Virus record (IMG/VR): IMGVR_UViG_3300030390_001176
Coordinates: 1-25,660 of that record
Origin: a virus
Strand: one strand, 5' to 3'
Length of the DNA: 25,660 nucleotides
A program made the position numbers and the translations under genes. Positions within the stretch are counted from its first letter, which is position 1, and every line of letters begins with the position of its first letter. Of this stretch, positions 5,797 to 24,104 are shown in pieces. The notes beneath the pieces were generated by a model. It made no database searches. It worked only from the letters and a program-made list of their open reading frames with translations, and was not told where the DNA came from.

Positions 5797-6354
5797 ATGC
5801 CATACGCAAATATAGAAGAGCAACGCAAGGCTCAGAGAGAATATTACTATCGTAACAAAGAAGCTGTTAATAAAAGAACAAAAGAATGGAAAGAAGCTAA
5901 CCCTAAGCGTAACGCAGAATTTAAAGTTACATGGAGAAAAAATAATTCTGAAAAAGCTAAAGAACAAAATAGAACAAGTGCAGAACGATTTAGAAAAAAT
6001 AATTTAGAAAGTTGTAGAGAATATAATAGGCAGTATAAAATAGACAACCCTGATGTTATTCAATCAGCAAAAGCTATTAGACGAGCAAAGAAATGGGGAA
6101 CATATAAACTTTTATCAAAGGAGGAAAAAGCATTGTGTAGAAGTTTTTATACTGAGGCAAAAGAAAGAAACCAGGAGGAAAAAACAAAGTATGTAGTAGA
6201 CCATATTATTCCTATTTCAAAAGGTGGAGGACATACTCCAAACAATTTACAAGTAGTTCCTGAACAATGGAATATGCACAAAGGAAATAAGCTATGGGGT
6301 AAATATAAACATAAAGGAAATAAGGATGCCAAAAGTGGTTTACACAGTAGATGA
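5797..6354 (+). CDS. HNH endonuclease, probably free-standing homing type
   Basis: I choose the ATG at 5797 (185 residues), because AAAAGG lies 6 nt before it. An in-frame ATG at 5743 would add 18 residues but has a poorer context. The N-terminal 100 residues are a Lys/Glu/Asn-rich helical region with repeated REYYYRN-like and EWKEANP-like segments, common in phage HNH proteins. The HNH core follows: DH (135-136), GGGH (143-146), NN (149-150), then N159 and K162. It probably makes DNA breaks and may spread as a selfish gene into the replication block. The 3' end overlaps the next gene by 29 nt. Confidence 0.86.
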   Translation: MPYANIEEQRKAQREYYYRNKEAVNKRTKEWKEANPKRNAEFKVTWRKNNSEKAKEQNRTSAERFRKNNLESCREYNRQYKIDNPDVIQSAKAIRRAKKWGTYKLLSKEEKALCRSFYTEAKERNQEEKTKYVVDHIIPISKGGGHTPNNLQVVPEQWNMHKGNKLWGKYKHKGNKDAKSGLHSR

Positions 6355-6565
6355 AAAACAAGCGTTGATTGATAGAGCTAATGAGTTTATGAAAAGAAAG
6401 CCTGAAGCGAGTAGAGCGAGAGTCGCTACATATACAGGGTGTGCTATAACTATCTTACAAAAATGGGAGAAACTTGGTTTATTGAAACTCCCTCCTATAA
6501 TGACTAAGAAACAAGTACGCAAGCAACATAATTGGGCAAACCAACTTGGCAAATTAAATGGCTGA
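6326..6565 (+). CDS. Small helix-turn-helix DNA-binding protein
   Basis: A 79-residue basic protein. Residues about 29-57 read as a helix-turn-helix (SRARVATYTGC, then ITILQKWEKLGLLKLPP), of the kind that recognises a site and then continues into a wing or linker. AAAGGAAATAAGG before the ATG is a clear ribosome binding site inside the HNH gene. It overlaps the HNH gene by 29 nt and the next gene by 8 nt. It may be a transcription factor or a terminase small-subunit-like binder; with no other clue I favour a generic DNA-binding protein. Confidence 0.72.
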   Translation: MPKVVYTVDEKQALIDRANEFMKRKPEASRARVATYTGCAITILQKWEKLGLLKLPPIMTKKQVRKQHNWANQLGKLNG

Positions 6566-6752: not shown

Positions 6753-6894
6753 CAAAACTAAAAGAGTATGCAAAGAATGTGGTAAGCCAGCTACATACTT
6801 TTATGAGCAATGGTGGTGTGGACACACAAGAGATTTAAAAGGTGTATGTGTTAATAAAAAAGAGAGGAAAAATGAAACAAATAATAACACTTGA
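6736..6894 (+). CDS. Small Cys-rich zinc-finger-like protein, 52 residues
   Basis: A 52-residue ORF with CKECG (C12, C15), WWCGH (C28, H30) and C38, fitting a small zinc-binding protein. Its 5' end overlaps the previous C4 protein by 17 nt and its 3' end overlaps the polymerase start by 23 nt. The basic N-terminus MPTKYNKTKR fits a nucleic-acid binder. It is the second of several small Cys-rich proteins clustered around the polymerase. It has no strong ribosome binding site. Confidence 0.62.
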   Translation: MPTKYNKTKRVCKECGKPATYFYEQWWCGHTRDLKGVCVNKKERKNETNNNT

Positions 6895-8743
6895 TTTTGA
6901 AACATTCTATGACACGGGGTATGGATTAAAAGCCCTAACTGTTGAAGAATATATTAAGAGTCCTCAGTTTCAAGTCATTGGCTTTGCTATTAAAGTAAAT
7001 GATGGCTCTACTAAATGGTATTCAGGTACTCACGAAGAGTTACAAGAAATAATAAATTCTTTTGAGTGGGAAGAATCAGGACTGTTGTGTCATAACATTC
7101 ATTTTGACGGAGCAATTCTCTCGTGGATATTTGGAGCAGTCCCTAAACTTTATCTTGATACACTATCTATGGCTCGTGCAGTGCATGGCACAAATGCAGG
7201 GGGTTCATTAAAAGCTTTAGCTGAGCGTTACAATCTGGGAGTAAAAGGAACAGAGGTTCTGGACGCTAAAGGAAAACGATTGGAGGACTTTCAACCTCAT
7301 GAACTTCATAGATATGGCGAATACTGTAAGAATGATGTTAACTTGACAGCAAAACTCTTCGCAGCATTGAATGTTTCATTTCCTTTAGAAGAACTCAAGC
7401 TGATAGATATAACAACCCGCATGTACACCGTACCTACATTATCAGTAGATGATGCTTTATTAATTACTCGTCTAGAAGAAGTAGAGAAAGAGAAAAAAGA
7501 ACTGTTAGAGGGATTGATGAAGAAGCTTAAATGTGAAACTCCTGAAGATGTACGCAAGAAGTTAGCAAGTAACAAACAATTTGCTGAATTATTAGAAGAG
7601 CTAGGGGTAGATGTACCTTTAAAAATATCTCCTACAACTGAGAAAGAAACTTATGCGTTAGCTAAAAATGATTTAGGATTTATAGAGTTATGTGAACATG
7701 AGGATAGCTTTATTCAAGAGCTATGTTCTGTAAGGCTTGGCACTAAGTCGACAATGGAAGAATCACGAATTAGAAGATTTCTAGACATTGGTGCACGGAA
7801 CAGAGGCCTTCTTCCCGTACCATTAAGATACTACGGAGCTCACACAGGTAGGTGGTCAGGACAGGACAAAATAAACTTTCAGAACTTACCTAGCAGGGAC
7901 GTTAAGAAAAAAGCTTTAAAGAATGGAATTCTTCCACCTGATGACCATGTAATATTAAATGTAGATTCCTCACAAATCGAGGCTCGTATACTAGTGTGGC
8001 TTGCAGGTCAAGAAGATGTGGTAGAACAATTTAGAAAAGGGGAAGATGTATATTCTAATTTTGCGTCTAAGGTATATAACAAGAAGATAGATAAAAGAAA
8101 CAAGGTAGAAAGGTTTGTTGGAAAGACTTGTATACTTGGATTAGGGTATGGTACAGGGTGGAAGAAACTACAACACACATTAGAAACTCAACCACCTAGT
8201 GCTAAGTTATCGGATATGGAATGTCAAAACTTAGTTAAAGTTTATAGAGATTTAAACCACGAAGTAATTGACTTATGGCAGGATTGTGACCAAGCATTAG
8301 GAGATATAGCATCATGGGAAAATGGTAAAGCTCCTTATTATATAGGCAAACACGAGGTTCTTAAGGTTACTAAAGAGGGTATACAACTACCTAATGGAAT
8401 GTATATATACTATCCTGAACTAGAATGGGATACTTCTGAGGCTAAAGGAAGATTTGTTTATAAGTCAAGACGAGGTAAAGTAGGTATATGGGGAGGTTCA
8501 GTAGTAGAAAATGTAGTACAGGCATTAGCTAGAATAGTTATAGGTGAACAAATGATTCAAATTAATAGAAAATATAAACCCATACTTACAGTACACGATG
8601 CTATAGTATGTGTTGCACCTAAAAAAGAAAGACAGGAAGCTTTAGATTTTATGATGAAAGAAATGTCTATACCACCTCAATGGGGTAAAGATTTACCTAT
8701 TACTTGCGAGGGAGGTTTTGCAGATAATTACGGAGATTGTTAA
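6872..8743 (+). CDS. polA: Family A DNA polymerase with 3'-5' exonuclease
   Basis: A replicative family A polymerase. I choose the ATG at 6872 (623 residues), since GAGAGGA lies 5 nt upstream; an in-frame ATG at 6842 lacks this. The 3'-5' exonuclease has DFE (8-10), HNIHFD (74-79) and D155 in YCKND. Polymerase motifs: RWS and FQNLPSRD (327-343), motif A DSSQIEAR (365-372), motif B R414-x3-K418-x3-L422-x3-Y426-G, and motif C VHD (574-576). No 5'-3' exonuclease domain. The residue matching E. coli Phe762 is Leu, a variant common in marine phage polymerases and reported to lower rate or raise fidelity. It copies the phage genome together with the primase-helicase at 14254. Confidence 0.95.
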   Translation: MKQIITLDFETFYDTGYGLKALTVEEYIKSPQFQVIGFAIKVNDGSTKWYSGTHEELQEIINSFEWEESGLLCHNIHFDGAILSWIFGAVPKLYLDTLSMARAVHGTNAGGSLKALAERYNLGVKGTEVLDAKGKRLEDFQPHELHRYGEYCKNDVNLTAKLFAALNVSFPLEELKLIDITTRMYTVPTLSVDDALLITRLEEVEKEKKELLEGLMKKLKCETPEDVRKKLASNKQFAELLEELGVDVPLKISPTTEKETYALAKNDLGFIELCEHEDSFIQELCSVRLGTKSTMEESRIRRFLDIGARNRGLLPVPLRYYGAHTGRWSGQDKINFQNLPSRDVKKKALKNGILPPDDHVILNVDSSQIEARILVWLAGQEDVVEQFRKGEDVYSNFASKVYNKKIDKRNKVERFVGKTCILGLGYGTGWKKLQHTLETQPPSAKLSDMECQNLVKVYRDLNHEVIDLWQDCDQALGDIASWENGKAPYYIGKHEVLKVTKEGIQLPNGMYIYYPELEWDTSEAKGRFVYKSRRGKVGIWGGSVVENVVQALARIVIGEQMIQINRKYKPILTVHDAIVCVAPKKERQEALDFMMKEMSIPPQWGKDLPITCEGGFADNYGDC

Positions 8744-9219: not shown

Positions 9220-9362
9220 TGGCTAGGAAAGTTAAACAAACAGAACAAGTATATGAACCAACACACAAACGAACGAGTCAAGGTGGACGAATACCAAAGA
9301 CATCTTCCATGAACAAAAGCTTTAGAGCTGGATACAAAAAATACAGAGGACAAGGAAGATAA
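9219..9362 (+). CDS. Small basic protein ending in KKYRGQGR
   Basis: A 47-residue, very basic ORF (starts MARKVKQTEQ, ends AGYKKYRGQGR) that spans exactly from the previous stop to the next start, with TAATG overlaps at both ends and ATAAAGGAT as ribosome binding site. The C-terminal KKYRGQGR is, from memory, typical of short conserved proteins in marine phages. It is likely unstructured and nucleic-acid binding. Function unknown. Confidence 0.72.
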   Translation: MARKVKQTEQVYEPTHKRTSQGGRIPKTSSMNKSFRAGYKKYRGQGR

Positions 9363-10024
9363 TGGCAGACTTTACATGGAGTTACTCAGCACTAAAGCAA
9401 TATCAAAATTGCCCCAGACAGTATCATGAAATAAAAGTATTAAAAAATTACATAGTTAAAGAGAACGAAGCTATGCGATATGGTACTGAAGTGCATGAGG
9501 CGTTAGAACTCTATGTGAAAGAAGGCAAAGAGTTAGCTAAAAATTATCAACGATTTAAACAATTTGTAGACCCTCTTATTAAAATTAAAGGGGATAAATA
9601 CCCTGAACATAAAATGGCTTTGACTTATAATAAAGAGCCATGTGATTTTGATAGTGATACTCGGTGGGTAAGAGGCATTGCTGACTTACTTATTGTAGAT
9701 GGGACACATGCATTTGTAGTTGATTATAAAACAGGGAGTAAAAAATATCCTGACCCTAAACAGTTAAGGTTAATGTCTTTAATGGTGTTTAGTATATTCC
9801 CTGATGTTCAAAAAGTAAAAGGGGCTTTGTTTTTTATAATGCATAACAGTATTGTAGAAGAAACATATTTTAGAAAAGATATGGACAAATCATGGGGAAG
9901 ATTTGAACAACCTTTAAAAAGATTAGAAATGTCATATGATAATGATGTATGGCAAGCTAACCCTACTCCTTTATGTGGGTGGTGCTCAGTAGATAGTTGT
10001 GAGTTTTGGAAGCCAAGAAGATAA
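9362..10024 (+). CDS. PD-(D/E)XK nuclease, RecB/Cas4-like with Fe-S type cysteines
   Basis: A 220-residue nuclease of the RecB/Cas4-like PD-(D/E)XK superfamily. Catalytic-site residues read as H45 (GTEVHEA), D107 (GIADLL), D121-Y-K123 and Q134. The cysteines C17 near the N-terminus and C205-x2-C208-x4-C213 near the C-terminus fit the 4Fe-4S arrangement of Cas4 and AddB. Such phage proteins act as exonucleases in recombination, end processing or host DNA breakdown. AAGGAAG precedes the ATG, which overlaps the previous stop. No recombinase gene is seen in the window. Confidence 0.88.
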   Translation: MADFTWSYSALKQYQNCPRQYHEIKVLKNYIVKENEAMRYGTEVHEALELYVKEGKELAKNYQRFKQFVDPLIKIKGDKYPEHKMALTYNKEPCDFDSDTRWVRGIADLLIVDGTHAFVVDYKTGSKKYPDPKQLRLMSLMVFSIFPDVQKVKGALFFIMHNSIVEETYFRKDMDKSWGRFEQPLKRLEMSYDNDVWQANPTPLCGWCSVDSCEFWKPRR

Positions 10025-10447: not shown

Positions 10448-12019
10448 ATGAAATTAATTGATAACAAAGCAGTTCAAATAACTGTTTCAGAACAAATAGG
10501 CAATAGTATTGTGGCTCAACTAAATAAGTCAGCTATTATAAAAAACCACGGCAAACTTGTAGATGTTTTAGTTAATTGGGGTGTTCAAGAAATGACCTAC
10601 CTCAATAGAGCCATTAGATTTAAAACTGCTTTACCCTCCCCTATAGTAAAAGAATATAATTGGCCTGGTCTGTATAAACCTTTTGACCATCAACGAGTTA
10701 CCTCTGAATTTTTAAGTATTAATCCTAAAGCATTTTGTTTTAATGAAGCAGGTACAGGGAAAACTTCTTCTGTGTTATGGTCAGCAGATTATCTAATGAA
10801 CCTCGGTCTTGTTAAACGAGTATTAGTTATCTGTCCATTATCTATTATGTATTCAGCTTGGCAAAACGATATATTTAATACTTGTATGCATCGGACATCT
10901 GCTGTATGTCATGGCTCCGCAGACAAAAGAAAAACTATTATAGAAAGCTCATATGAGTTTGTGATTATTAATTATGATGGTGTTAATATCGTAAAAGAAG
11001 CTATTAAAAAGGGAGGGTTTGATTTAATAGTAATTGATGAAGCTAATGCTTACAAGTCTACAAGCACTTCAAGATGGAAAACTATATCTAAAATTCTTAC
11101 TCTTGATACAAGATTATGGATGCTTACAGGTACACCAGCTTCTCAATCTCCTATGGATGCATATGGTATAGCAAAGTTAGTAGCTCCTGAGCGAGTTCCT
11201 AAATTTACCAATGCATGGAGAGATAAAGTTATGCATCAAATATCTAGATTTAAATGGTTACCAAGACCTGATTCTAAACATAAAGTATTTGAAGCTTTAC
11301 AACCAGCAATTAGATTTGCTAAGGCCCAGTGTTTAGATTTGCCTGATGTTATGTATCAAACAAGAGAAATACCTTTAACTACTCAAGCACTTTCGTATTA
11401 TAAAGAATTAAAAAATCAAATGCTTATTGAAACAGGGGGAGAATCAGTAACCGCTGTTAATGCAGCGGCTGGGCTTAATAAGTTATTACAGATATCAGGA
11501 GGAGCAGTTTATACAGATACAAAAGAAGTAATTGAGTTTGATATTAAGCCACGATTAAATGCATTAATGGAAGCAGTAGAAGAAACAGAACATAAAGTAT
11601 TAGTGTTTGTGCCATATAGACATACTATTACTTTAGTAGCTGACCATTTAACAAAGAATAATATAAGTAATGAGCTTATTCATGGAGATGTTAAAGCCAC
11701 TGAAAGAGCCGCAGTTATTAATAGATTCCAAACAGAGGACAACCCTAGGGTTTTAGTTGTTCAACCTCAGTCTGCATCACATGGAGTAACTCTAACTAGA
11801 GCCAATGTAGTTTTATTTTGGTCTCCTGTTATGAGTGTGGAGGTATATTTACAATGTATTGCTCGTATGGATAGAGTAGGACAGGTTAATAAAATGACAG
11901 TTGTTCATTTACAAGGGTCAGATGTAGAAAAAAGAATGTATAGAATGCTTCAGGGTAAGGTGGATTCCCACATAAAATTAGTTGATTTATATAGAGAGGA
12001 GTTAGAAAATGTCAGTTAA
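10448..12019 (+). CDS. SNF2-like DEAD/DEAH superfamily 2 helicase
   Basis: A 523-residue SF2 protein of the SNF2 type. Lobe 1 has Walker A (EAGTGKTS, 100-107), a DEAN Walker B (197-200) and TGTP (227-230). Lobe 2 has FVPYRHT near 387-393, QPQSASHGVTLT (439-450) and motif VI QCIARMDRVGQ (469-479). Phage SNF2-like proteins use ATP to move on duplex DNA and are usually assigned to replication, recombination or displacing bound proteins. GAGAGGG lies 4 nt before the ATG, and it is the first gene after the 10369 promoter. It overlaps the next gene by 11 nt. There is no extra domain. Confidence 0.92.
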   Translation: MKLIDNKAVQITVSEQIGNSIVAQLNKSAIIKNHGKLVDVLVNWGVQEMTYLNRAIRFKTALPSPIVKEYNWPGLYKPFDHQRVTSEFLSINPKAFCFNEAGTGKTSSVLWSADYLMNLGLVKRVLVICPLSIMYSAWQNDIFNTCMHRTSAVCHGSADKRKTIIESSYEFVIINYDGVNIVKEAIKKGGFDLIVIDEANAYKSTSTSRWKTISKILTLDTRLWMLTGTPASQSPMDAYGIAKLVAPERVPKFTNAWRDKVMHQISRFKWLPRPDSKHKVFEALQPAIRFAKAQCLDLPDVMYQTREIPLTTQALSYYKELKNQMLIETGGESVTAVNAAAGLNKLLQISGGAVYTDTKEVIEFDIKPRLNALMEAVEETEHKVLVFVPYRHTITLVADHLTKNNISNELIHGDVKATERAAVINRFQTEDNPRVLVVQPQSASHGVTLTRANVVLFWSPVMSVEVYLQCIARMDRVGQVNKMTVVHLQGSDVEKRMYRMLQGKVDSHIKLVDLYREELENVS

Positions 12020-12407
12020 ATTAGAAGAATTAGTCAAAGCGTATATTGCAATTCGTAATAAACGTGACGCTAATGCAAGAGAGTTCGATGCCAAAGATAA
12101 AGATTTAAAAGGCGAACTTGCACAGTTAGAACAAGTTATGCTGAACTCGTGTAACGAAATAGACGCAGATAGTATTCGTACTGGAAGCGGAACAATCATA
12201 AAAACCATGAAAGAGAATTTTGTATGTGGTGATTGGGATAATTTTAAGGACTACGTTATGAACAATGACGCAATTGAATTATTACAACAACGCATACATC
12301 AGACTAATTTCAAGGAATTTTTAAGCAACCGAACCGATGAGGGATTACCTCCTGGTATTAGTACTATGAGAGAGTTTCAAATTGTAGTTCGCAAACCAAG
12401 TAAATAA
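12009..12407 (+). CDS. Hypothetical coiled-coil protein next to SSB
   Basis: A 132-residue protein. Residues 1-50 are helical and likely coiled coil, followed by an aromatic-rich part (ENFVCGDWDNFKDYVMNND near 69-87) and a C-terminus GLPPGISTMREFQIVVRKP (113-131). I know similar proteins beside phage SSB genes, with no established function. GAGGAG precedes the ATG, which lies inside the helicase end. A DNA-replication accessory role is inferred from position. Confidence 0.8.
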   Translation: MSVKLEELVKAYIAIRNKRDANAREFDAKDKDLKGELAQLEQVMLNSCNEIDADSIRTGSGTIIKTMKENFVCGDWDNFKDYVMNNDAIELLQQRIHQTNFKEFLSNRTDEGLPPGISTMREFQIVVRKPSK

Positions 12408-12424: not shown

Positions 12425-13099
12425 ATGGCAACAACAGATAACACAATCACTACACCAAAAGGTATTGCACAATACCCTTGGTTATCTAAACCCGACACTA
12501 AATTTTCAGAAGAGGGTGAGTACAAAGTAAATGTAATACTTACTAAAGAAGAAGCATCACCACTAGTTGAAAAAATTAATGGTATATTTGCTGAAAACGT
12601 TAAAGAAGAAACTAAGAAAAATAAAGGTAAAGAAGTTAAAACTTCTAACCCCCCTTACATGGACGAGTTAGATGATGATGGAAAGCCTACAGGTAATGTT
12701 ATTCTTAAGTTTAAATCTAAAGCGGCTTATCCTCCAGCTATCTTTGATTCAAAAGGCACAGTAATGAAAGACAGTAATATATGGGGAGGCTCTGAAGTTA
12801 AAGTTAATGGTTATGTCGCACCTTATTTTACAAGTATGGTAGGTGCAGGTGTAGCTCTTAGACTTAGAGCTGTTCAAGTAATTCAGTATGTAGAAGGTTC
12901 TCAAGGTGCGGGACGATTTGGTTTTGAGGAAGAAGACGGAGGATTTATTCAAGAAGTTCCTGAAAAATTTGATGAGTTTGACGCTCCAAAAGAAGCACCT
13001 AAAGTAGAAGAACCTGTAGTAAGAAAAGACCCTACTGAGAGTATGGATAAGTCTGACGATATATCAGGAATTATTGATAAATGGTCTACTAAAGATTAA
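12425..13099 (+). CDS. Single-stranded DNA-binding protein, T7 gp2.5-like (DUF2815)
   Basis: A 224-residue OB-fold ssDNA-binding protein of the gp2.5/DUF2815 kind, close to the usual length of about 230. The core runs from TPKGIAQYPWLSKPD (10-24) through VILKFKSKAAYPP (92-104) to GVALRLRAVQVIQYV (142-156). After about 165 it is acidic, as in SSB tails that bind the polymerase and helicase. The tail ends DISGIIDKWSTKD, a motif echoed at the end of the next protein. AAGGAG precedes the ATG. It would coat ssDNA during replication. Confidence 0.87.
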   Translation: MATTDNTITTPKGIAQYPWLSKPDTKFSEEGEYKVNVILTKEEASPLVEKINGIFAENVKEETKKNKGKEVKTSNPPYMDELDDDGKPTGNVILKFKSKAAYPPAIFDSKGTVMKDSNIWGGSEVKVNGYVAPYFTSMVGAGVALRLRAVQVIQYVEGSQGAGRFGFEEEDGGFIQEVPEKFDEFDAPKEAPKVEEPVVRKDPTESMDKSDDISGIIDKWSTKD

Positions 13100-13107
13100 G
13101 GGTAGAC

Positions 13108-13950
13108 ATGACTGATGAACTTAAGGATATAATTGAAGACAGTCACTCGCCTTTAGATTCAGATACTTTAGCGGTATCAGGGGAGTTAAATAAACCTCTT
13201 CATCGCATCTCTTTGAATGGAAACAAATTTAGAAAGATGTTAGGAAGTGAAGAGGTAGCCGTAGCTCCTGACCAACATTTAAATGTTGTAATAATAAAGA
13301 TGGCTCACACGCCGTCTAGAACTTATTATGATAAAGTATATCAGGAGGGTAAAATTTCAAGTCCTGTGTGCTGGTCTAATGATTCTCAAGTAGCAGACAA
13401 GGATGTGCCTATTGCTCAAGCAAAATCTTGTAACCAATGTAAAAATAGTGTACGAGGTTCAGGTGCTAATGGCATGGGCACGGCTTGTAAACTTTCATGG
13501 CGTATAGCAGTAGTTTTAGCTAAGGATATGAAAGGAGACATTATTCAATTAGTTCTGCCAGCGATGTCTTGTTTTGGTAAAGAGAAGCATGGTAAATGGC
13601 CTTTTAGACCTTATATTCAGATGCTTGCAAATAATAGTGTTAGTGCAGGAAGAGTTATAACAAAATTACAGTTTGATGAAGAAGTTAATATACCCAAACT
13701 TTTGTTCTCTCCAGTAGCCGCTATTAAAGAATGTGATATGGAAGATTTACAACTCAAATCAAAAGACCGTACCGCAGCTAAGGCTATTACATTAAATGTA
13801 AAAACTCAGAATGAAGTAGACCCTAACCGGCCCACGGTGCAATTTGATGTATTTCTTGAAACACCAGCAGAACCTACTTCACAACAAATAGAAAGAGATG
13901 AAGAAGTTTCAGACATTATTAAACGATGGACAAATAAAAACGGGAGTTAA
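13108..13950 (+). CDS. C4 zinc-binding protein with SSB-type tail, function unknown
   Basis: A 280-residue protein conserved in look with a phage family of unknown function. Cysteines C88, C108, C111 and C127 form a probable zinc site (PVCWSND ... CNQCKNS ... ACKLSWR). Around it are strands such as IIQLVLPAMSCFG (145-157). The C-terminal 15 residues, EVSDIIKRWTNKNGS, match the tail of the adjacent SSB (pattern [DE]-[IV]-S-x-I-I-x-[KR]-W-[ST]-x-K). It could be a second ssDNA-binding or replication accessory protein, since T4 gp32 also holds zinc. The assignment as an SSB is inference. Confidence 0.82.
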   Translation: MTDELKDIIEDSHSPLDSDTLAVSGELNKPLHRISLNGNKFRKMLGSEEVAVAPDQHLNVVIIKMAHTPSRTYYDKVYQEGKISSPVCWSNDSQVADKDVPIAQAKSCNQCKNSVRGSGANGMGTACKLSWRIAVVLAKDMKGDIIQLVLPAMSCFGKEKHGKWPFRPYIQMLANNSVSAGRVITKLQFDEEVNIPKLLFSPVAAIKECDMEDLQLKSKDRTAAKAITLNVKTQNEVDPNRPTVQFDVFLETPAEPTSQQIERDEEVSDIIKRWTNKNGS

Positions 13951-13951
13951 A

Positions 13952-14257
13952 ATGGCACGACCTTATAGCGACAAATTTTTATTGGGCTTACAGTACGCCG
14001 ACCAAAATAAGTTAGGCATACAACTAGCTCAACTATGTGTCAAGTCTAATCTACCTACGATGTATCTAAGTGATATGTTTAAAGTAAGTAGACAGAGTGT
14101 ACATAACTGGTTTCGAGGGAAACCTATCAGGAAAGCACATCAAAAACTAATTTTAGAATTTATGGTTTTGGTTGAACTTGATTTAAAAAACAATGTGTTA
14201 CCAGCACGCAACTTAGCTAACGCTCGGCAATACGCTAGTGATTGGTCTTCAAGATGA
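13952..14257 (+). CDS. Helix-turn-helix protein, 101 residues
   Basis: I choose the ATG at 13952 (101 residues), since GGGAG lies 5 nt upstream; an in-frame ATG at 13898 would overlap the previous gene by 53 nt. Residues about 34-57 form a helix-turn-helix (LPTMYLSDMFKVSRQSVHNW), XRE/Cro-like in look, followed by a helical C-terminal half. It is a candidate for the regulator that binds the palindromic operators, although no proof is present. It overlaps the primase-helicase start by ATGA. Confidence 0.75.
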   Translation: MARPYSDKFLLGLQYADQNKLGIQLAQLCVKSNLPTMYLSDMFKVSRQSVHNWFRGKPIRKAHQKLILEFMVLVELDLKNNVLPARNLANARQYASDWSSR

Positions 14258-17064
14258 TAAATGAATTCTATAAAAAAGTTTTACCTACAGAGGGTGTCTA
14301 TTGTATAGCTACAATTAAAGACAGGGTTAAACATTATTTTGTTGAATCCGTTGAAGAAATTGAACCAAAAATTGAAGAGCTTAAAAGTAAAGAAGACTCA
14401 AATATTTATATAGCTCTTGGTAGTTTTGATGGCTATAGTAGAAAGGCAGATAATGCTTTATATTTTAGGTCTTTATTTATTGATTTAGATGTAGGTGATG
14501 AAAAGGACTACTCTACTAAAGAAGAAGCTGAACAAGCTTTAGATAAATTTATAGAAGAGAATCACTTCCCTGGCGCACTAAAATTAGACTCAGGTAGAGG
14601 TATTCATGCTTACTGGATAATGAACGATAATATTTCTATATCTCAGTATGTAGCATACTCTGAAAAACTTAGAGACTATTGTTTAGAAAAAGGGTTGCGT
14701 ATTGATAGAGCAGTCATGGCTGACCCAGCAAGAATTATGAGGTGTCCTAATACTTTAAACATGAAAGACACTCCTCCTACTCTTACTAAACTTATAAGCC
14801 GGGAGATACCTACGTATGATATAGAAAACTTCAAAACATACTTAGGCGAAGTTAAAACAACTCTAGATGATATATTACTAGAGGCTAAAGGTCCTTTAAC
14901 TGAGGACCAAAAAAATATTCTAAAGCTAGATAATTTTCAGTCTAACTTTAAAACTATAGCTATTAAAAGTCTAAAAGATAAAGGGTGTGGGCATATAAAA
15001 CGTATGATAACTACACCTAACGATATACCTGAGCCTTTATGGTATGCAGGATTATCAATAGCTCAACATTGTGACGATAGAAATACAGCTATACATAATT
15101 TATCTGAGGGGCATAAACACTATAATAAAGAGGTTACTGAGCGTAAAGCTAATCAGACTCAAGATAAACCTCAGTCATGTAAAGTATTTAATGAATTAGA
15201 AGCTGGGATTTGTGATAAGTGTGAACATCAAGGAAAAATAAAGAACCCATTAGCTTTAGGAAAAAGTTTTAAACCTGCACCTACTAGTCAAGAAGTTCAA
15301 GTGTTACCTAAAACTGGGTTAGTAAGTTTACCTAAAGATTTAGGTCCATTTAGATATGGTAAAAATGGGGGTATATATTTTCAACCGCCCGTAGTATTTG
15401 ACGAAGATGGAAATGCTCAGGCTAAAGACCCAATCTTAGTTTCAACCTATGATTTGTATCCTATCAAAAGAATCTACAGTGTGCATGATGGTGAATGTTT
15501 ATTAATGAAGGTTCATTTACCTAATGACCCTGAACGAGAATTTATGTTGCCAATGAAATACTTATATGCTTTAGACAAGTTTAGAGAGATAATAACTAGT
15601 GTGGGTATCATTTATAACCCTTCTAACCATCAAGGAAAATTTTTAATGCAATACATATATGAATGGGGACAATACCTTATTGCAAGAGATAAAGCAGAAA
15701 TTATGCGTATGCAAATGGGTTGGACGGCTGATAAAGAAGCTTTTGTAATTGGTAATAAAGAAATAACTAAGAAAGGCGAGATTTTAAGTAGTCCTACCTC
15801 TCCTTTATGTAGGGGTATAGCTACCCATTTATCTCCTGAGGGCTCTTATGAAGCTTGGCAAGAAGCCGCTAATACACTTAATTCACCTAGTTTAGAGCTT
15901 CATGCCTTTACAATGTTATCTGGGTTTGGTTCTACTCTTATGAATTTAACTTCTACAAGTGGAGTAGCTATATCTTTAACAGGCACATCTGGTGCAGGTA
16001 AAACTGGAGCTTTGTTCTCTGCTCTAAGTATATGGGGTAACCCTAAAGACTTATCTGTGTTAGAAGGTAACTCTACAGAAAACGCTTTAACAGGAAGGTA
16101 TTTAGCTTTACACAATCTACCTCTAGGACTTGATGAAGTAGGTAATATACACGGTAGAGATTTGTCAAGGCTTATACATAAAATATCTCAAGGTAAAGCT
16201 AAGATGCGTATGCAAGCTTCAGTTAATGCAGAACGAGAACATGAGCTATCTGCATCTTTAATAGCTATCTTTACCTCCAATCATTCTCTTTATGACAAAC
16301 TAAGCACTATAAAAAAAGACCCTAACGGAGAGGTTGCTCGTTTAATAGAATTTAATATGCATAAGCCTGCGTTGTTTGAGGAAGTGCCTGGAATATCAGC
16401 TAAAATATTTGATACATTTAGATTAAATTATGGTCATGCTGGTAGTAAATTTATACAACATTTATATACTAAATCTCATTCAGAAGTAAATGACTTGATA
16501 GCTAAATGGATAGCTAAATTTAAAGAAGATTTTGGAGATGATAGTGTATATAGATTCTATGAAAATATTATAGCCTCTACTTTTACAGCCGCTGAGATTG
16601 CTATAGAAGCTAAAATAGTTACTTTAGATATAGATAGAATTTATAAATATGCAGTGAGAGAGATGATAAATATTAGAGATAATGTTATTAGAATTAATAG
16701 TGTAGATTATGAAAGTGTATTGGGTGAGTATATTAATGAACATCAGACAGGCATACTTGCTATGGACAATCATAAGGTAACTATGGAGCCTAGAAGTAAT
16801 TTAGTAATTAGAGCCGATATAGATATGTCAAAAATTTATATAGAGAAGAAGCACTTCAGGGTTTATCTTACAGAAAATGGAGTTAGTCTTCGTGAATTTA
16901 CATTCAATATGAAAGAAAAGGGATACACAATAGCTGATAAGAAGTTAAGAATGGGTACAGGGTGGAAGCCAGCCACAGGATTTAGTCCTATCACTGCTAT
17001 TGAAATAGATACCACTAAGTTTTTAGATGACTTATTAAAGGAGCAGAAGTCTGAATCTGCATGA
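14254..17064 (+). CDS. Primase-helicase: AEP-type primase fused to DUF927-type helicase
   Basis: I choose ATG 14254 (936 residues), coupled by ATGA to the previous gene. The N-terminal archaeo-eukaryotic primase-like domain has FIDLDVG (D77, D79), SGRGIH (113-118) and a third Asp in LRIDRAVMADPARIMRCPN (148-166). A PriCT-like stretch (SIAQHCDDR, EGHKHY) leads to C309, C320 and C323, a possible metal site. The C-terminal helicase has Walker A GTSGAGKT (577-584), Walker B LGLDEV (624-629) and a TSN sensor near 692, as in DUF927. It would open the duplex and make primers for the family A polymerase, taking the role of T7 gp4 with a different primase family. Confidence 0.88.
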   Translation: MINEFYKKVLPTEGVYCIATIKDRVKHYFVESVEEIEPKIEELKSKEDSNIYIALGSFDGYSRKADNALYFRSLFIDLDVGDEKDYSTKEEAEQALDKFIEENHFPGALKLDSGRGIHAYWIMNDNISISQYVAYSEKLRDYCLEKGLRIDRAVMADPARIMRCPNTLNMKDTPPTLTKLISREIPTYDIENFKTYLGEVKTTLDDILLEAKGPLTEDQKNILKLDNFQSNFKTIAIKSLKDKGCGHIKRMITTPNDIPEPLWYAGLSIAQHCDDRNTAIHNLSEGHKHYNKEVTERKANQTQDKPQSCKVFNELEAGICDKCEHQGKIKNPLALGKSFKPAPTSQEVQVLPKTGLVSLPKDLGPFRYGKNGGIYFQPPVVFDEDGNAQAKDPILVSTYDLYPIKRIYSVHDGECLLMKVHLPNDPEREFMLPMKYLYALDKFREIITSVGIIYNPSNHQGKFLMQYIYEWGQYLIARDKAEIMRMQMGWTADKEAFVIGNKEITKKGEILSSPTSPLCRGIATHLSPEGSYEAWQEAANTLNSPSLELHAFTMLSGFGSTLMNLTSTSGVAISLTGTSGAGKTGALFSALSIWGNPKDLSVLEGNSTENALTGRYLALHNLPLGLDEVGNIHGRDLSRLIHKISQGKAKMRMQASVNAEREHELSASLIAIFTSNHSLYDKLSTIKKDPNGEVARLIEFNMHKPALFEEVPGISAKIFDTFRLNYGHAGSKFIQHLYTKSHSEVNDLIAKWIAKFKEDFGDDSVYRFYENIIASTFTAAEIAIEAKIVTLDIDRIYKYAVREMINIRDNVIRINSVDYESVLGEYINEHQTGILAMDNHKVTMEPRSNLVIRADIDMSKIYIEKKHFRVYLTENGVSLREFTFNMKEKGYTIADKKLRMGTGWKPATGFSPITAIEIDTTKFLDDLLKEQKSESA

Positions 17065-17255: not shown

Positions 17256-20200
17256 TTAATCTGGATTATAATCAGTTCTCTTACGGTTTTTTTGAGAGTC
17301 TAGTGATTGAGGTTTTACAAGTTGAGGTACGACTTCTTCAATATCTAATAAAATTTCTCTTTTTTCTTTTAATAACTCTGCTTTTAGTTCTTTAATATTT
17401 TTATTTCTTTCTTTTAAAGGTATTGTAGTATTAACTCTCATTTCTGACAGTTCTTGTTGTAATTTAGAATAATTTCCACCTTTAGTTAATTTATTCCATT
17501 TTCTTTTAGCATCTTCAAGACCTATATTTTCTGGCTTAGCTAAAAATTCATAGATACCCGGTTTATAATTATTTTCATCTAATATAAATGCATCCAATTG
17601 TTTAAATTTAGTTTCTAATTTATTTTTAGTTTTTTGAAAATCCTCGGCAACTATTTTAGTTTGTGTTGAAATAAAACTATCAAATGCCATAGTAGATTTA
17701 CTTACATTATCTAAGTTTGGATTTTTTTTACCCTTAACTAAAAGGTCTCCTTCATATAAATTATGTAAAATTCTTCCTGGACCATCAAAATAATTATTTG
17801 ATAAAAAATAAAGTATATCTGGGCTTATTTGTACTTCTTTACCTGTGGAATCACTTAACCACATAGCCGCATCTTTATACATCTCAGGTGTATTATCCCC
17901 TGCTGCATAAGCTTGGCCATATCTATTATTTTGTCTATATACTTGATAGCCAAAACCACTTGTATTTTGTTGTAATTCTAACCAAGGTCTAACAAAACTT
18001 GGGGCTAAAGTATCCATCACAAAAAAACTTGCATTACTAAGATTATCAGTATAATCAATTCTAGATATAGGTATAGGTAAAAAAGAATCTAATAAAATTT
18101 CAGAAATATTTCTAGCTATTTTTCCTTTTTCATTATAAGTAGAGCCTCCTAAATCTTCTAAAGCAGCTAGTTGAGCTCCAACAGCGGCTAATCCCCCTAG
18201 TCCAAAACCCCAAGGAATTTGTATCATATATTCCCCAATTTGAAATCTAGAAAATCTAGTCCATCTAGACATATTATCAGCGTCTGTTATATTTCTTCCT
18301 TCTTCATCATCGCCACTTAAATATTTAGACATATTATACATTAACGCTCCAAAACCTAGGGCTGCTATACTAACTATCATCCCATTTCTCATTTGACGGG
18401 TATAATTATTTCTCCACGTTTCAAGTTTAGCAGGGTCATTTTTTATACTATCAGGAAGTCTATCTTCTTGTACTTGTCTGCCTCCACTTCCTACGGGCAC
18501 TGTTAAAGTTCTTAAAGCTGGACTTATAGCATCTAAAGCTCTAACTGCGCCTGTTGCACTAGGTCTAAAAAACATATATAACGCTCCTAGTTGTTTACCC
18601 CATTCGCCCGTTTGTTCAAAGTTAGCTAAGTCTTTAGAATATATAGCCGCATATTCTATAGCCTGTTTTTCATTTAAACCTAAGCTTTTTCGTTGATGTT
18701 TTATAGCTCTAAAAGCAGCTAATCTTACAGAAAGTTCAAAAGTTCCTACTAATTTATCAAAAAAACCATTAAAATTTTCTCTTCCTTGTAGTATATATTG
18801 ATTTTTTCCAAATTTTGAACTCGCATTTAAAACATCTTGGAGTTGATTATTAGTAGCTAATGATTGTATATAAGATACATTACCTCCTGATTGAAAAAAA
18901 TCTAACATATCAGCTTGAATACTTCCAGGTCCTGCTTTTTTAGCCGCTTTTTCTAATGATTTAATATCTCCCCTAACATAAGCTGCTACTGCTCTATTAG
19001 TAGATACCATAGGTAATACTAACATTTGTTTAGCTATTTCCATTGTATATAACGGAAGGGCTGAAGGATTTTCTACAGCAATTATAAAAAAGTTAGTTAT
19101 TGCATCTCTTATAAAATTTAATAAGGGGAATGCAGGATTATATCTAGTATGCATTTGTCCAAATTTACTTGTAATAGCATTTAAAGCATTCCAAGCTTTA
19201 TCAACATTTGGAGTGTCATTGTTAATAGGTTTTCTAATAGCTCTTACTATTCGACTATTTCTTGGAGAATTATCTAAAGTAATTACTTGAATAGAACCAT
19301 CTTCATTTTCGTGAATAAAATCATTCTCTCCTAATTTAGAAGTATCTATTTCTCCTTTACCTCTTTTTAAATACCTATCTATTAAAGAAATTGGGTTACC
19401 AACTTTTCCTTTTATGTGTCCTTGATTTATATTATTTATAATAGCTTTTGTTAAACCTTTTCTACCCACTCTTGCAGTTGCATGAATAGCTTCTACTATA
19501 GATTGCACAACACTATTTTTTGCTGAAGTATCCCTACCTTCTAATCCCACTGCTATATCCCTAGCTGTCCCTCCTAATTTTGTTCCAGTATAATCAAAAT
19601 CTGAATCATAAATTGGGTCAGTTCCTTCTTTAAATTGAGGCCTTCCTTTTAAAGGAACATAATTGTTAAAGTTATAAAAATTAATAAAGTTTTGAGATAA
19701 AGAAGTATTAAATCCAGCTTCAGAATTTACTTTTAAAGTAGCGTCTTGTAGTTGTTTCATTGCTATGGAAATATTTTTTTGTATTTCTTTTAGCTTAGGG
19801 TTATTATTTATTGAGTCTCTTCTTTTTTGTTCGGTTTCATGATTATTTTCAGTAACATTATATAATACAGAAGTTTCATCTAAAGCATCGGGATTTCCTT
19901 TTGTATCAAAGGCGCTTGTACCTCCATTTATATCGGCATAGTTTTGAACTAAAGTTTCTAAATCTTTTCTTAATCCTAAAGCATCATTTTTTGAAAGGTT
20001 AAGATTTCCTCCAAGCTCTTCTATAATATTTAATCTATATTGATTTGCAGATACTTTAGACCCGTCTACCCATGTTAAATTTATAGCCTCAGTTAAAGGA
20101 ACATTTTTTAAGTATTTTACATGTCTTCTTTCAGATTCGTGAATAGCTTGTAATATTAAATGAAGTTGTTCTACTGCATCTTCTGGTTTTCCATCATACT

Positions 20201-23200
20201 CATCTACCCATTTTGCTATCGTTCGTTTATATCTGCTCATTATTTCTTGTATTTCTCTTTTATAAACAAAGTCAGCTTTACCAAAAATTGAATCCATTAT
20301 TGTAGCTATATTATTAGCATTGTCTCCTCCTGTTTCTAGTTCCCCAGCAGTTTCTTTTGCTTGGTCTAATTCTACTATAGCAGCTCTATCATTTTGTAAC
20401 ATTTGTCTAGTAGTTTGAGTATTAATATTACTTACAACTTGTCTTACTATACTTCTTTGGTCTGGAGCGTTTTTTATAGCTTTGTCTATATCTTCTTGCA
20501 TACTTTGTTCGGCTGATTTTTCATCCTTAATAAGTCTTTCTGATACTCTTTTTGAAACTTTTTTATTAACACCTGATTTTCCTGATTTCTTTGTACTAAA
20601 TTTTGCTATTTCTTCTTTAGTTTTACCTATTTTCCATTTTCTATTTACAGGGGTTCCATCAGCGTCTACTCCTACAGATTTACGTCCTTCTTTAAACCTA
20701 GTTTCTTTACCTCTTAATCCAAAGTCTTCTGCTGCTTCAGCAACAGCAGGTTCATATCCTTGTGATAATATAATATCAACTTGCGTAGCAATTGCAGCTA
20801 AACTAGAACTTTTATTACTTCCTTCTGTAAACCCTAAAACTTTAACAAATGAATCTACTAATTTACTTATTAATTCTAAAAAGTTCTCTCGTTTTTTATT
20901 AAAGTTTTTTCTTTTTTCAACGGAAATTTTTCCATCTTTTCTATCAGTTGCAAGTAATTGGTCTTGACTAATGTTTTCTAATTCTTGTTGAAGATTAGAA
21001 GAACTTCCTTGATAATTTTTTCCTTCAAAAGAATAAGCTATAAGTTCATTAAGGTCGTCTTGTTCTCTAAGACCAACAGGTATAGTTTTTCCTGATTGTG
21101 TATAAAATTTTTGTAATTGTTTACGTATATTTTTAAGTTCTTTAACAGAATTTCTTTGAGTTGCAGTAAGATTTTGATTAATAACTTTTAATTCTGCTTT
21201 TTCTGCAGTAGTTATTTTTGTGCCTTTCTTTTTTAAATAATCATATCTAGCAGTCGAATCAATTATATGGTCAAGTGAAGAATGCATACTTTCATGAAGT
21301 ATAACGTTTACTACATTTAACTTATTAATATTAAGATTACCATCAAGGTTTTTTAAATTAATTGTAATAGTATTAGTTTTAGGGTCATATTGACCGGCTT
21401 TGTTTCCTTTAACATTACCTGCTTGAATTTTAGTATTACTTTTTACTCTTAATAATCTTTGAGCTATTCGCGCATTAACTCCATATAAGTTTCCTATTTC
21501 ATTTAATATAATTTTTATATTTATAGGAGGATTAGGGTTTCCCTCGCCATCTAATAACTCACCTGCAATAATTAAAGCTACTTTAGCCTGTCTTTCTAGT
21601 ACAGGGTCACCATCACCACGTTCTTTAGGAGGTAATGATGGTGTATTTCTTAAACTATTTAAAAATTTGTCGGTATTAACTTCAGTAGAATCAGTTTCTT
21701 TATCAACCTGCTCGTTAAAACTATTTTGTATTTCTTTTATATTTTTATTTTTATCTTTATCTTTTTCTTGTTTTCTATATTGTCTAAACTCTTCTTTATA
21801 TTGTTGATGAGGAAGTTCTATTGTTGGAGCTTTAGGTGTATCTATTCTATTTCTCTTATTAATTAATCTTGTAATTAATCTATTTCTAATTTTATTTTTA
21901 TTTTCTTCTATTTCTTTATTAGATAGTAGTTTAGATGTGCTACTTAAACTATTAATATATTCTTGAGCTCTATTAATATCTTCTTGTAATTCTATGTCTA
22001 ATTCTTTTAAGTCTAATTTTCCTTCGTGTTTTTCATATATTTTTCTTACTTTATTTTCATATTCTTTAGTTTGCAAAGCTTGAGGAAAAGTAGTGCCTCC
22101 TTCCTGCTCTTTAGGTTTTAAATCAGGGAATTTTTTATTAAATTTTGTTTTTAATGTTCTTTCTGCCAAAGATTTATTTTCTTTTAATTTTTTAAATGCA
22201 GTAAATTTTTTCTTATATTCTTGTCTTTTTTTATTGTAGGTTGTTGTTTGTAATTTATTTATTTCTTCATTAATAGCTGTGGTATCTGCAGATTCAACAT
22301 CTTTAAGTGCAATTACATAATTTGCATCTATAAGTGCTTTTTTTCTAATTTGTTCAATATTAGGTTTAGAGTTAAATATTATTTTAGAGTCTTTAGTTTT
22401 TTGATTTGTTTTTATACTTTGTAAAGGACTACTACCTGCATACTTACTACCTGATATTTCAAAAGGATGTAAATTTAATTTGTTAGCTTTAACATATTCT
22501 TGGCCTTTAGACTTTCTTAATTCAAACTGTTCTTTTGATTGTTTATTATATTCTTGCTCAAACGCTTCATTTTTTTCTTCTTGAGTAAGTTCTTCTTCTT
22601 TTAATGCAGACTGCTGCTCGCCCTCTGTTGCGACAGGTCCTCCAGCAATACCTGTACTCTCAGCCAGTCCTCCTCCGTCAGTTGCGACAGGCGTGGGGGC
22701 ACCGGCTGCATCAAGTCCTCCTGGCTCAGAAACATTAGAGCTTCCTCCAACTCCTGGAGCGTTAGTGGGTGTAATGGGGAAAAATTTAGATTCTTGAGTA
22801 AGAGGGGTTCCTCCTCCTTCTTGTGCCGTAATTTGGATTTCTTCATTTACATTTTCTCCTTGATTTTCAGCTTCTATTTTTTCTTGGTTCCTTCGTATAT
22901 AAAACTGTTGTTCTGTTTCATCTGGCAATTTATTTTGTTCGTAGTCATCAAATTGTTCTATAGCTTTAGGTTTAGGTTTAGCTTTAGCTTTAGGTTTAGT
23001 TATTGGGGATACTACTGGTGAAGTACCAAGATTACCAAATTTAGATTCTTCTTGAGGGGGTTCATTTTCGTCTACAGGGTCTTCAGCTAAACCCTCTTTA
23101 TCATCTTTTATGGTACTACGTTTTCCTCTAGTTAATAAAGCAGCGCCACCGCCCATACCTATTCCAGCTAATAAACCTGTAGCCGCTGATTCTGCTACTC

Positions 23201-24104
23201 CTTCCATAGGGTCTTTATTTAAAGCAACATTTTGAAGTATTTGTTCTTGTATAGATTGAGGAAGTTCTTCAAAAGCACCTTCAGTTATTGCTGCATAAGC
23301 TATATCAGTTAGTAATCCACGTTTTGTACCTTCTTGAACTCCCTCAGCAAATAATACATCAGCGTCTACTATTCCAACTTTGTTAGCTATCTTAGCTCCA
23401 ACAGTTCCAAGTACAGCTGTAAATATACCTGTTAAAGCAGAAAGTCCAGCTTGTTTACCACTTAAAGTTTGGTCATCAGTTTGCCTTCTTATATCAGTAG
23501 CTTGTTGCCCAGCACCTACTACTCCTTCACCAATCCCTGCTGCTACTCCATAGCTACCTGGTGTTTCTCCTACTAATTTTTGAGCTTTTCGATATTTGTT
23601 TAATTTAAGAAGACCTTGAGCAATTTTACCCCCACCAAACATAGCTGGTAATGACTCTGCTACAGTACCTATTATAGTAGAAGGGTTTTGAACCATAGCA
23701 CTTAAAGTGCCTCCAAATCCTTCTGCTTCAGCTACTTCTCTTTCAGCTCTTAAACCTTGCCTTGAAGTGCCTTTATCTAAAAATGCTTTAGCATCTTCTG
23801 TAGTTCCTCCAAATAACTCTTCACTTAATTCGTCAGTAAATTTACCTACCGCGCCTCCTGTAGGAATATCCGCTAACCCAGTAACGGCATCTACAACACC
23901 AATCACACCTTTACCTACATCTATGCCTATATCACTTACACGACGTAATGCAGAATCATCGCCTGCTAAAGGGTCTTTTTCTTGTTGGTTTAATTGATAT
24001 ACAAGGGCTTCTTGTATTTGTCTGTCACTAGCACCTACAGGTCCTTCAAGAGTGTGTATTACTCCATCAGGTCCTCGAAGTTTATATTGTTGTGTATCAG
24101 CCAT
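17256..24104 (-). CDS. Giant polyvalent virion-type protein with metallopeptidase motif
   Basis: A 2282-residue protein on the minus strand. N-terminus: a PDG domain (KLRGPDGVIHTLEGPVGASD, 8-27) seen in large phage proteins. About 60-330: Gly/Ala-rich, partly hydrophobic. About 340-510: Pro/Gly linker (KPKAKAKPKPKA near 370). About 510-900: Lys/Glu-rich coiled coil. A zincin motif HESMH (937-941) with a possible third ligand Glu near 1020 (LNELIAY). C-terminal: FIRDAITNFF (about 1660), MFFRPSATGAVRAL (about 1841) and hydrophobic stretches near 1905-1925 and 1955-1985. Probably packaged and ejected into the cell, like large internal virion proteins. It may have other enzymatic domains I cannot identify. 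The ATG is 5 nt after the previous stop, with no clear ribosome binding site. Confidence 0.85.
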   Translation of the reverse strand: MADTQQYKLRGPDGVIHTLEGPVGASDRQIQEALVYQLNQQEKDPLAGDDSALRRVSDIGIDVGKGVIGVVDAVTGLADIPTGGAVGKFTDELSEELFGGTTEDAKAFLDKGTSRQGLRAEREVAEAEGFGGTLSAMVQNPSTIIGTVAESLPAMFGGGKIAQGLLKLNKYRKAQKLVGETPGSYGVAAGIGEGVVGAGQQATDIRRQTDDQTLSGKQAGLSALTGIFTAVLGTVGAKIANKVGIVDADVLFAEGVQEGTKRGLLTDIAYAAITEGAFEELPQSIQEQILQNVALNKDPMEGVAESAATGLLAGIGMGGGAALLTRGKRSTIKDDKEGLAEDPVDENEPPQEESKFGNLGTSPVVSPITKPKAKAKPKPKAIEQFDDYEQNKLPDETEQQFYIRRNQEKIEAENQGENVNEEIQITAQEGGGTPLTQESKFFPITPTNAPGVGGSSNVSEPGGLDAAGAPTPVATDGGGLAESTGIAGGPVATEGEQQSALKEEELTQEEKNEAFEQEYNKQSKEQFELRKSKGQEYVKANKLNLHPFEISGSKYAGSSPLQSIKTNQKTKDSKIIFNSKPNIEQIRKKALIDANYVIALKDVESADTTAINEEINKLQTTTYNKKRQEYKKKFTAFKKLKENKSLAERTLKTKFNKKFPDLKPKEQEGGTTFPQALQTKEYENKVRKIYEKHEGKLDLKELDIELQEDINRAQEYINSLSSTSKLLSNKEIEENKNKIRNRLITRLINKRNRIDTPKAPTIELPHQQYKEEFRQYRKQEKDKDKNKNIKEIQNSFNEQVDKETDSTEVNTDKFLNSLRNTPSLPPKERGDGDPVLERQAKVALIIAGELLDGEGNPNPPINIKIILNEIGNLYGVNARIAQRLLRVKSNTKIQAGNVKGNKAGQYDPKTNTITINLKNLDGNLNINKLNVVNVILHESMHSSLDHIIDSTARYDYLKKKGTKITTAEKAELKVINQNLTATQRNSVKELKNIRKQLQKFYTQSGKTIPVGLREQDDLNELIAYSFEGKNYQGSSSNLQQELENISQDQLLATDRKDGKISVEKRKNFNKKRENFLELISKLVDSFVKVLGFTEGSNKSSSLAAIATQVDIILSQGYEPAVAEAAEDFGLRGKETRFKEGRKSVGVDADGTPVNRKWKIGKTKEEIAKFSTKKSGKSGVNKKVSKRVSERLIKDEKSAEQSMQEDIDKAIKNAPDQRSIVRQVVSNINTQTTRQMLQNDRAAIVELDQAKETAGELETGGDNANNIATIMDSIFGKADFVYKREIQEIMSRYKRTIAKWVDEYDGKPEDAVEQLHLILQAIHESERRHVKYLKNVPLTEAINLTWVDGSKVSANQYRLNIIEELGGNLNLSKNDALGLRKDLETLVQNYADINGGTSAFDTKGNPDALDETSVLYNVTENNHETEQKRRDSINNNPKLKEIQKNISIAMKQLQDATLKVNSEAGFNTSLSQNFINFYNFNNYVPLKGRPQFKEGTDPIYDSDFDYTGTKLGGTARDIAVGLEGRDTSAKNSVVQSIVEAIHATARVGRKGLTKAIINNINQGHIKGKVGNPISLIDRYLKRGKGEIDTSKLGENDFIHENEDGSIQVITLDNSPRNSRIVRAIRKPINNDTPNVDKAWNALNAITSKFGQMHTRYNPAFPLLNFIRDAITNFFIIAVENPSALPLYTMEIAKQMLVLPMVSTNRAVAAYVRGDIKSLEKAAKKAGPGSIQADMLDFFQSGGNVSYIQSLATNNQLQDVLNASSKFGKNQYILQGRENFNGFFDKLVGTFELSVRLAAFRAIKHQRKSLGLNEKQAIEYAAIYSKDLANFEQTGEWGKQLGALYMFFRPSATGAVRALDAISPALRTLTVPVGSGGRQVQEDRLPDSIKNDPAKLETWRNNYTRQMRNGMIVSIAALGFGALMYNMSKYLSGDDEEGRNITDADNMSRWTRFSRFQIGEYMIQIPWGFGLGGLAAVGAQLAALEDLGGSTYNEKGKIARNISEILLDSFLPIPISRIDYTDNLSNASFFVMDTLAPSFVRPWLELQQNTSGFGYQVYRQNNRYGQAYAAGDNTPEMYKDAAMWLSDSTGKEVQISPDILYFLSNNYFDGPGRILHNLYEGDLLVKGKKNPNLDNVSKSTMAFDSFISTQTKIVAEDFQKTKNKLETKFKQLDAFILDENNYKPGIYEFLAKPENIGLEDAKRKWNKLTKGGNYSKLQQELSEMRVNTTIPLKERNKNIKELKAELLKEKREILLDIEEVVPQLVKPQSLDSQKNRKRTDYNPD
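22627..22691 (-). repeat. In-frame repeat in a GC-rich linker of the giant protein
   Basis: An 11-bp sequence GTTGCGACAGG (as read on the + strand) occurs at 22627-22637 and 22681-22691, exactly 54 nt (18 codons) apart. It encodes PVATDGGGLAES... and then PVATEGE. The surrounding stretch, about 22605-22765, is visibly richer in G and C than the rest of this AT-rich gene. Confidence 0.7.

Follow-up and report, generated by a model that had tools for sequence, protein, structure and literature searches.

The DNA analyzed here (the window), a virus record of 25.7 kb (25,660 nucleotides), comes from a phage family that is known mainly through environmental DNA. On its plus strand, genes for a family A DNA polymerase (PolA; 6866..8743; Pfam DNA_pol_A, 6e-31) and a PD-(D/E)XK exonuclease (9362..10024; PDDEXK_1, 5e-16) are followed by those for a SNF2-type helicase (10448..12019; SNF2-rel_dom, 6.5e-20) and a 132-aa protein (12009..12407; phrog_13900), the latter at a conserved position that forms the upstream edge of what we term the SSB slot. 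In the window, this slot holds two plus-strand genes, encoding a gp2.5-like (T7-type) SSB of 224 aa (12425..13099) and a four-cysteine neighbor of 280 aa (13108..13950), and it is bordered directly on its 3' side by the gene for an HTH protein (13952..14257, plus strand), after which comes a DUF927 primase-helicase (14254..17064, plus strand; Pfam DUF927, 3.5e-24). We found the same operon, that is, PolA, PD-(D/E)XK exonuclease, a basic protein, SNF2, the ~132-aa protein, the slot, HTH and DUF927, in almost all loci that carry the tryptophan (W) tail described below. Both the phrog_13900 match of the 132-aa protein and the annotation of its Xp15 relative read 'minor head protein'; as the protein adjoins the SSB slot in a replication operon at nearly all loci, this head label is probably wrong. 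On the minus strand, a 2,282-aa ORF (17256-24104) takes up a large share of the window's right part.

The SSB core belongs to the T7 gp2.5 group, with matches to Pfam SBB_T7 (3e-13) and Enc34_ssDNA-bd (5e-6) and to phrog_112 (5e-35), and it passes the curated models PF21265 (50.1 bits; cut-off 27) and PF10991 (26.8 bits; cut-off 26). Its C-terminal part is of another kind. The linker contains an EP box, EPVVRK (13010..13027, plus strand; pattern EPx[VLIK]), the first half of a two-part tail, and the protein ends with the helix DISGIIDKWSTKD (residues 212-224; 13058..13096, plus strand), which is not the acidic, aromatic-ended tail of the T7 type. The neighbor ends with a comparable helix, EVSDIIKRWTNKNGS (residues 266-280; 13903..13947, plus strand), lying within a helix that spans residues 258-278 of its structural model. 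Both window proteins thus terminate in a helix of the form D-[IV]-S-x-I-I-x-[KR]-W, and the common C-terminal motif proposed in an earlier, sequence-only reading of this DNA is confirmed. That reading also held the two proteins to be unrelated elsewhere, and this stands: upon comparing the SSB and neighbor families with hhalign, the last 16 residues alone aligned (E=0.0044), and for the same reason descent of the two cores from one ancestor was rejected at the sequence level.

Taken by itself, the window pair is weak (E=0.13 for the window neighbor against the SSB-tail profile) and the motif is short, which would allow convergence on a generic amphipathic helix with no common function. We gathered relatives of both proteins from IMG/VR, built a profile from 34 SSB W tails, and ran it against 4,405 other ORF C-termini from the same loci, 81 neighbors, 62 SSBs and shuffled tails. 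This profile matched 38 neighbor tails at E<=1e-3 (best 1.3e-13); among the 4,405 other C-termini there was no match even at E<=1, and shuffled tails never reached 1e-3. In the opposite direction, a profile made from neighbor tails retrieved 29 SSBs but none of the other ORFs at E<=1e-3. When the SSB tails were anchored on the aromatic residue, D(-8) and I(-4) were present in 34 of 34, with W in 30 and F in the remaining 4, and the same anchoring of neighbor tails gave I/V(-4) in 60 of 63, next to a W in 63 of 63 that holds by construction, as these tails were picked for it. An exception is the neighbor of locus L004, which has an eroded tail with a Tyr. The shared tail is hence real, conserved and above chance, the similarity being kept in orthologues in the manner that the sequence-only reading had named as its test. 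Against these counts, and with the EP box also matching in many neighbors, convergence is very improbable.

The tail is confined to the SSB and neighbor families. No third carrier was present among the 951 ORFs of the window and five further contigs, four of them covered end to end and one without its last kilobase, and the proposed use of the tail as a tag for further replisome members accordingly yielded none. Two kinds of candidate were rejected: the DUF927 protein, in which EVNDLIAKW (residue 748) is internal and was not found in the L034 counterpart, and small-ORF matches such as that at window 6326-6565, which is an unrelated conserved protein.

The neighbor is a member of phrog_27714 (6e-22), a family without described function, and gave no Pfam family above cut-off and no match to PF21265, PF10991 or phrog_112; a search for solved structures by its sequence produced nothing convincing. 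Four cysteines, C88, C108, C111 and C127 (13369..13488, plus strand; codons at 13369, 13429, 13438 and 13486), are invariant in 53 sequences as well as in the Xp15, KPP25, Effie and Rollin homologues, and they possibly form a zinc site. Many neighbors start with a short predicted helix, DxLxxIL (window 13108-13140), followed by a conserved LDxDTLAV, and at L005:7683-7769 the neighbor frame runs upstream of the first ATG, and no clear start codon lies close to the conserved N-terminus. We modeled the window neighbor and that of locus L159, which are ~25% identical, with AlphaFold2 (pLDDT 83 and 78, respectively), and both models ranked the phiC31 RDF, RB69 gp32 and BRCA2 OB domains first, with RPA and SSBs lower. 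The matches are middling (Foldseek E ~1e-3), and Z <8 may, by the aligner's own warning, mean only a common arrangement, a caution to be kept with the scores of the window model (phiC31 RDF, Z 9.1; BRCA2 OB folds, 7.0; RB69 gp32, 6.7) and of the L159 model (phiC31 RDF, Z 7.3; RB69 gp32, Z 6.8). From these models, an OB fold is the likely architecture of the neighbor.

The slot is used alternately by the two proteins. It holds the SSB alone in loci L009-L018, L131-L137 and L155, the neighbor alone in most of L041-L112, and both in the window and ~24 others, with reversed order in L143 and L151. For the neighbor-only state we examined 32 contigs of 31-71 kb, most of them environmental and possibly incomplete. 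The SSB family profile matched 16 of these, always in its last quarter and always inside neighbor-sized open frames, which means that it sees only the neighbor's tail there; neither PHROG 112 nor the bacterial SSB family was found in any of the 32, whereas positive controls were detected. One contig, G015, has the neighbor at both ends, ~63.9 kb apart, the pattern that a complete, permuted genome would give. The neighbor family also occurs in the complete isolates Xp15, KPP25 and Effie, in Xp15 within the same slot, and neither a gp2.5-type nor a bacterial-type SSB is present in their genomes; the same holds for Rollin, recorded as a partial genome. Conversely, the neighbor profile matched none of 23 contigs with a gp2.5-type SSB only (18 with a W or F helix tail, 5 of T7 type). 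A tree of the SNF2 proteins requires 8 changes of slot state, without showing their direction or telling gain from loss. Elsewhere in their genomes, the neighbor-only phages may encode an SSB from a family not yet described. From the fold, the slot and the mutual replacement, we infer that the neighbor would itself bind ssDNA.

How the two halves of the tail are distributed depends on which proteins share the slot. W-tail SSBs carry the EPx[VLIK] box. Where both proteins are present, the SSB combines this box with the W helix and the neighbor has the helix only; where the neighbor is alone, it mostly carries both parts. An apparent EP box in 10 of 24 neighbors from two-protein loci was dismissed: EPVKF, at which the core domain ends, had raised the count, and on inspection by eye none of these tails has the box. 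As the tail is kept on SSB-only and on neighbor-only contigs alike, it is unlikely that either protein serves as the receptor of the other. These patterns also bear on the idea that the neighbor is a loader or mediator, similar to T4 gp59 or UvsY, or an RDF, whose SSB-like tail competes for the SSB docking site. Such a role would suit the phiC31 RDF as best structural match, and the many phages, including that of the window, which have both proteins and in which the neighbor tail is reduced, lacking the EP box. Yet the neighbor-only contigs contain no recognizable SSB of the gp2.5 or the bacterial type, leaving nothing to mediate unless an unrecognized or a host SSB takes part, and it is in these contigs that the neighbor has the full tail. 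We therefore deem a loader, mediator or RDF role unlikely.

A different form of C-terminus is found in ~17 more distant loci (L029, L156-L171), where the SSB tail is helix-like without a Trp (DDLAAEIAQLV, the L helix) and the neighbor has no W tail; in L156-type phages this is so although DUF927 is present, a point against the explanation proposed below. The neighbors of these loci end in FGFxEExGF (16 of 17, versus 15 of 4,738 other ORFs), which resembles the segment after the SSB core, so the neighbor there also has a C-terminal peptide in common with the SSB, but a different one. Examples of neighbors with this ending and no W tail are L156:5325-6017 and L159:5322-6008. The HTH family of W-tail loci was not found in L029 and L156-L171. 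More broadly, the W-tail HTH protein (window 13952-14257) was not found in L-helix or T7-type loci, and in L156 and L029 a different small HTH-like ORF stands in its place.

Tail type associates with replisome type. Every W-tail locus with the replicative helicase in view has DUF927, and loci whose SSB has an acidic, aromatic-ended tail have a T7-type gp4 in 14 of 14 cases with the helicase in view. The SSB of L019 has an acidic tail and a core that is still ~65% identical to the window SSB, indicating that tail and core are separable. In a tree of SSB cores, most W-tail SSBs cluster together, with weak support and with some acidic-tail SSBs among them, a topology compatible with an independent capture of the tail by the gp2.5 SSB as well as with its absence. 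These observations also weigh on the proposal that the tail binds either the OB groove of the protein that carries it or a sister SSB, in autoinhibition or self-assembly as has been proposed for acidic SSB tails, the two proteins sharing a DNA-mimicking role without any third partner. SSB tails do regulate DNA binding (PMC5686142, PMC9917605). However, the W helix ends Lys-rich and has no acidic run, and self-binding does not predict a tail that changes along with the helicase type on cores that stay related, which makes this proposal improbable, though less so than convergence.

As to the docking partner, the SNF2-type helicase and the DUF927 primase-helicase are the candidates from the window, and precedents exist for both a helicase and a polymerase: the helix 248-270 in the C-terminal region of T4 gp32 docks on the Dda helicase (PMC11551737), and the tail of T7 gp2.5 docks on the gp5 polymerase (PMC5686142). 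Across genomes, the similarity between SSB tail and neighbor tail tracked SNF2 and DUF927 divergence weakly to moderately, at r -0.2 to -0.4, and the W helix part did so at r -0.34 to -0.42 (rows permuted, phylogeny uncorrected). In a weak, phylogeny-uncorrected test, tail similarity did not track the divergence of PolA (r -0.02 to -0.09) or of the HTH protein. Docking on the family A polymerase, in the way of gp2.5 on gp5, has that T7 precedent and the presence of PolA in all cassettes whose upstream part is in view in its favor; with tail divergence untracked by PolA divergence, weak as this test is, we hold it to be possible but doubtful. Covariation weakly favors a helicase partner over the polymerase, and one common partner for both tails would be the best reading of the sequence comparisons.

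That SSBs dock through C-terminal tails is well known, and a report of one tail on two mutually replacing SSB families was not found in the literature searched. We propose that the neighbor is an alternative SSB, a point not raised by the sequence-only reading, and that the shared tail is a docking helix for one DUF927-type replisome surface, most likely on a helicase, which we consider a probable explanation. In this mechanism, the neighbor, with its predicted OB fold and four cysteines that would probably hold zinc, stands in the slot of the gp2.5-like SSB, and the shared C-terminal helix would recruit whichever SSB is present to the common DUF927-type surface, with the contact most likely being made on a helicase. 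In two-protein phages, the SSB and the neighbor may load on different DNA, or they may compete for one site. We also lean, somewhat less firmly, towards a history in which the SSB gene was swapped several times with the tail staying with the slot, the tail being a portable element of two parts and phrog_27714 an undescribed group of phage SSBs. If true, DNA coating and replisome recruitment by an SSB would be exchangeable modules, phrog_27714, now listed as function-unknown, would gain a function, and these phages would offer natural pairs for asking which part of an SSB fits it to its replisome.

Among known systems, the T7 gp2.5 group (SBB_T7, Enc34_ssDNA-bd, phrog_112) is closest to the window SSB, with which it has the core in common. 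The C-terminal tail of T7 gp2.5 recruits replisome proteins, but it is an acidic run ending in Phe, whereas that of the window SSB is a Trp helix with a Lys/Asp end and occurs also on a second protein that is unrelated in sequence. The neighbor resembles T4/RB69 gp32 in several respects, as its models match the core of RB69 gp32 over ~153 residues (Z 6.7 and 6.8) and as gp32 and, by prediction, the neighbor each join an OB fold to a metal-type module with cysteines and to a recruitment helix at the C-terminus; the four cysteines are, however, spaced otherwise in the neighbor and the tail sequence is different. T4 gp32 was rejected as a sequence relative of the neighbor (hhalign (A3), E 0.22 over 15 columns). 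The end of T4 gp32 (L192:1952-2854), DLDDLLNDL, resembles the SSB tail DLSDIINQW. The phiC31 gp3 RDF, the top fold match of both neighbor models (Z 9.1 and 7.3), is encoded by a gene 3 (L194:3099-3833) that too sits among replication genes; it belongs to phrog_9220 and, showing no profile match, was rejected as a sequence relative, and phiC31-type RDFs might derive from SSB-like proteins. The neighbor's own family comprises the phrog_27714 members KPP25 ORF069, Xp15 gp40 and Effie gp400, of which Effie gp400 ends NFDDIANKW and the KPP25 member is without a W tail. Finally, the E. coli SSB-Ct is likewise one short C-terminal peptide that serves as a docking hub, in that case for genome-maintenance proteins, while the phages described here have one tail on two different SSB folds, that of the neighbor being predicted.
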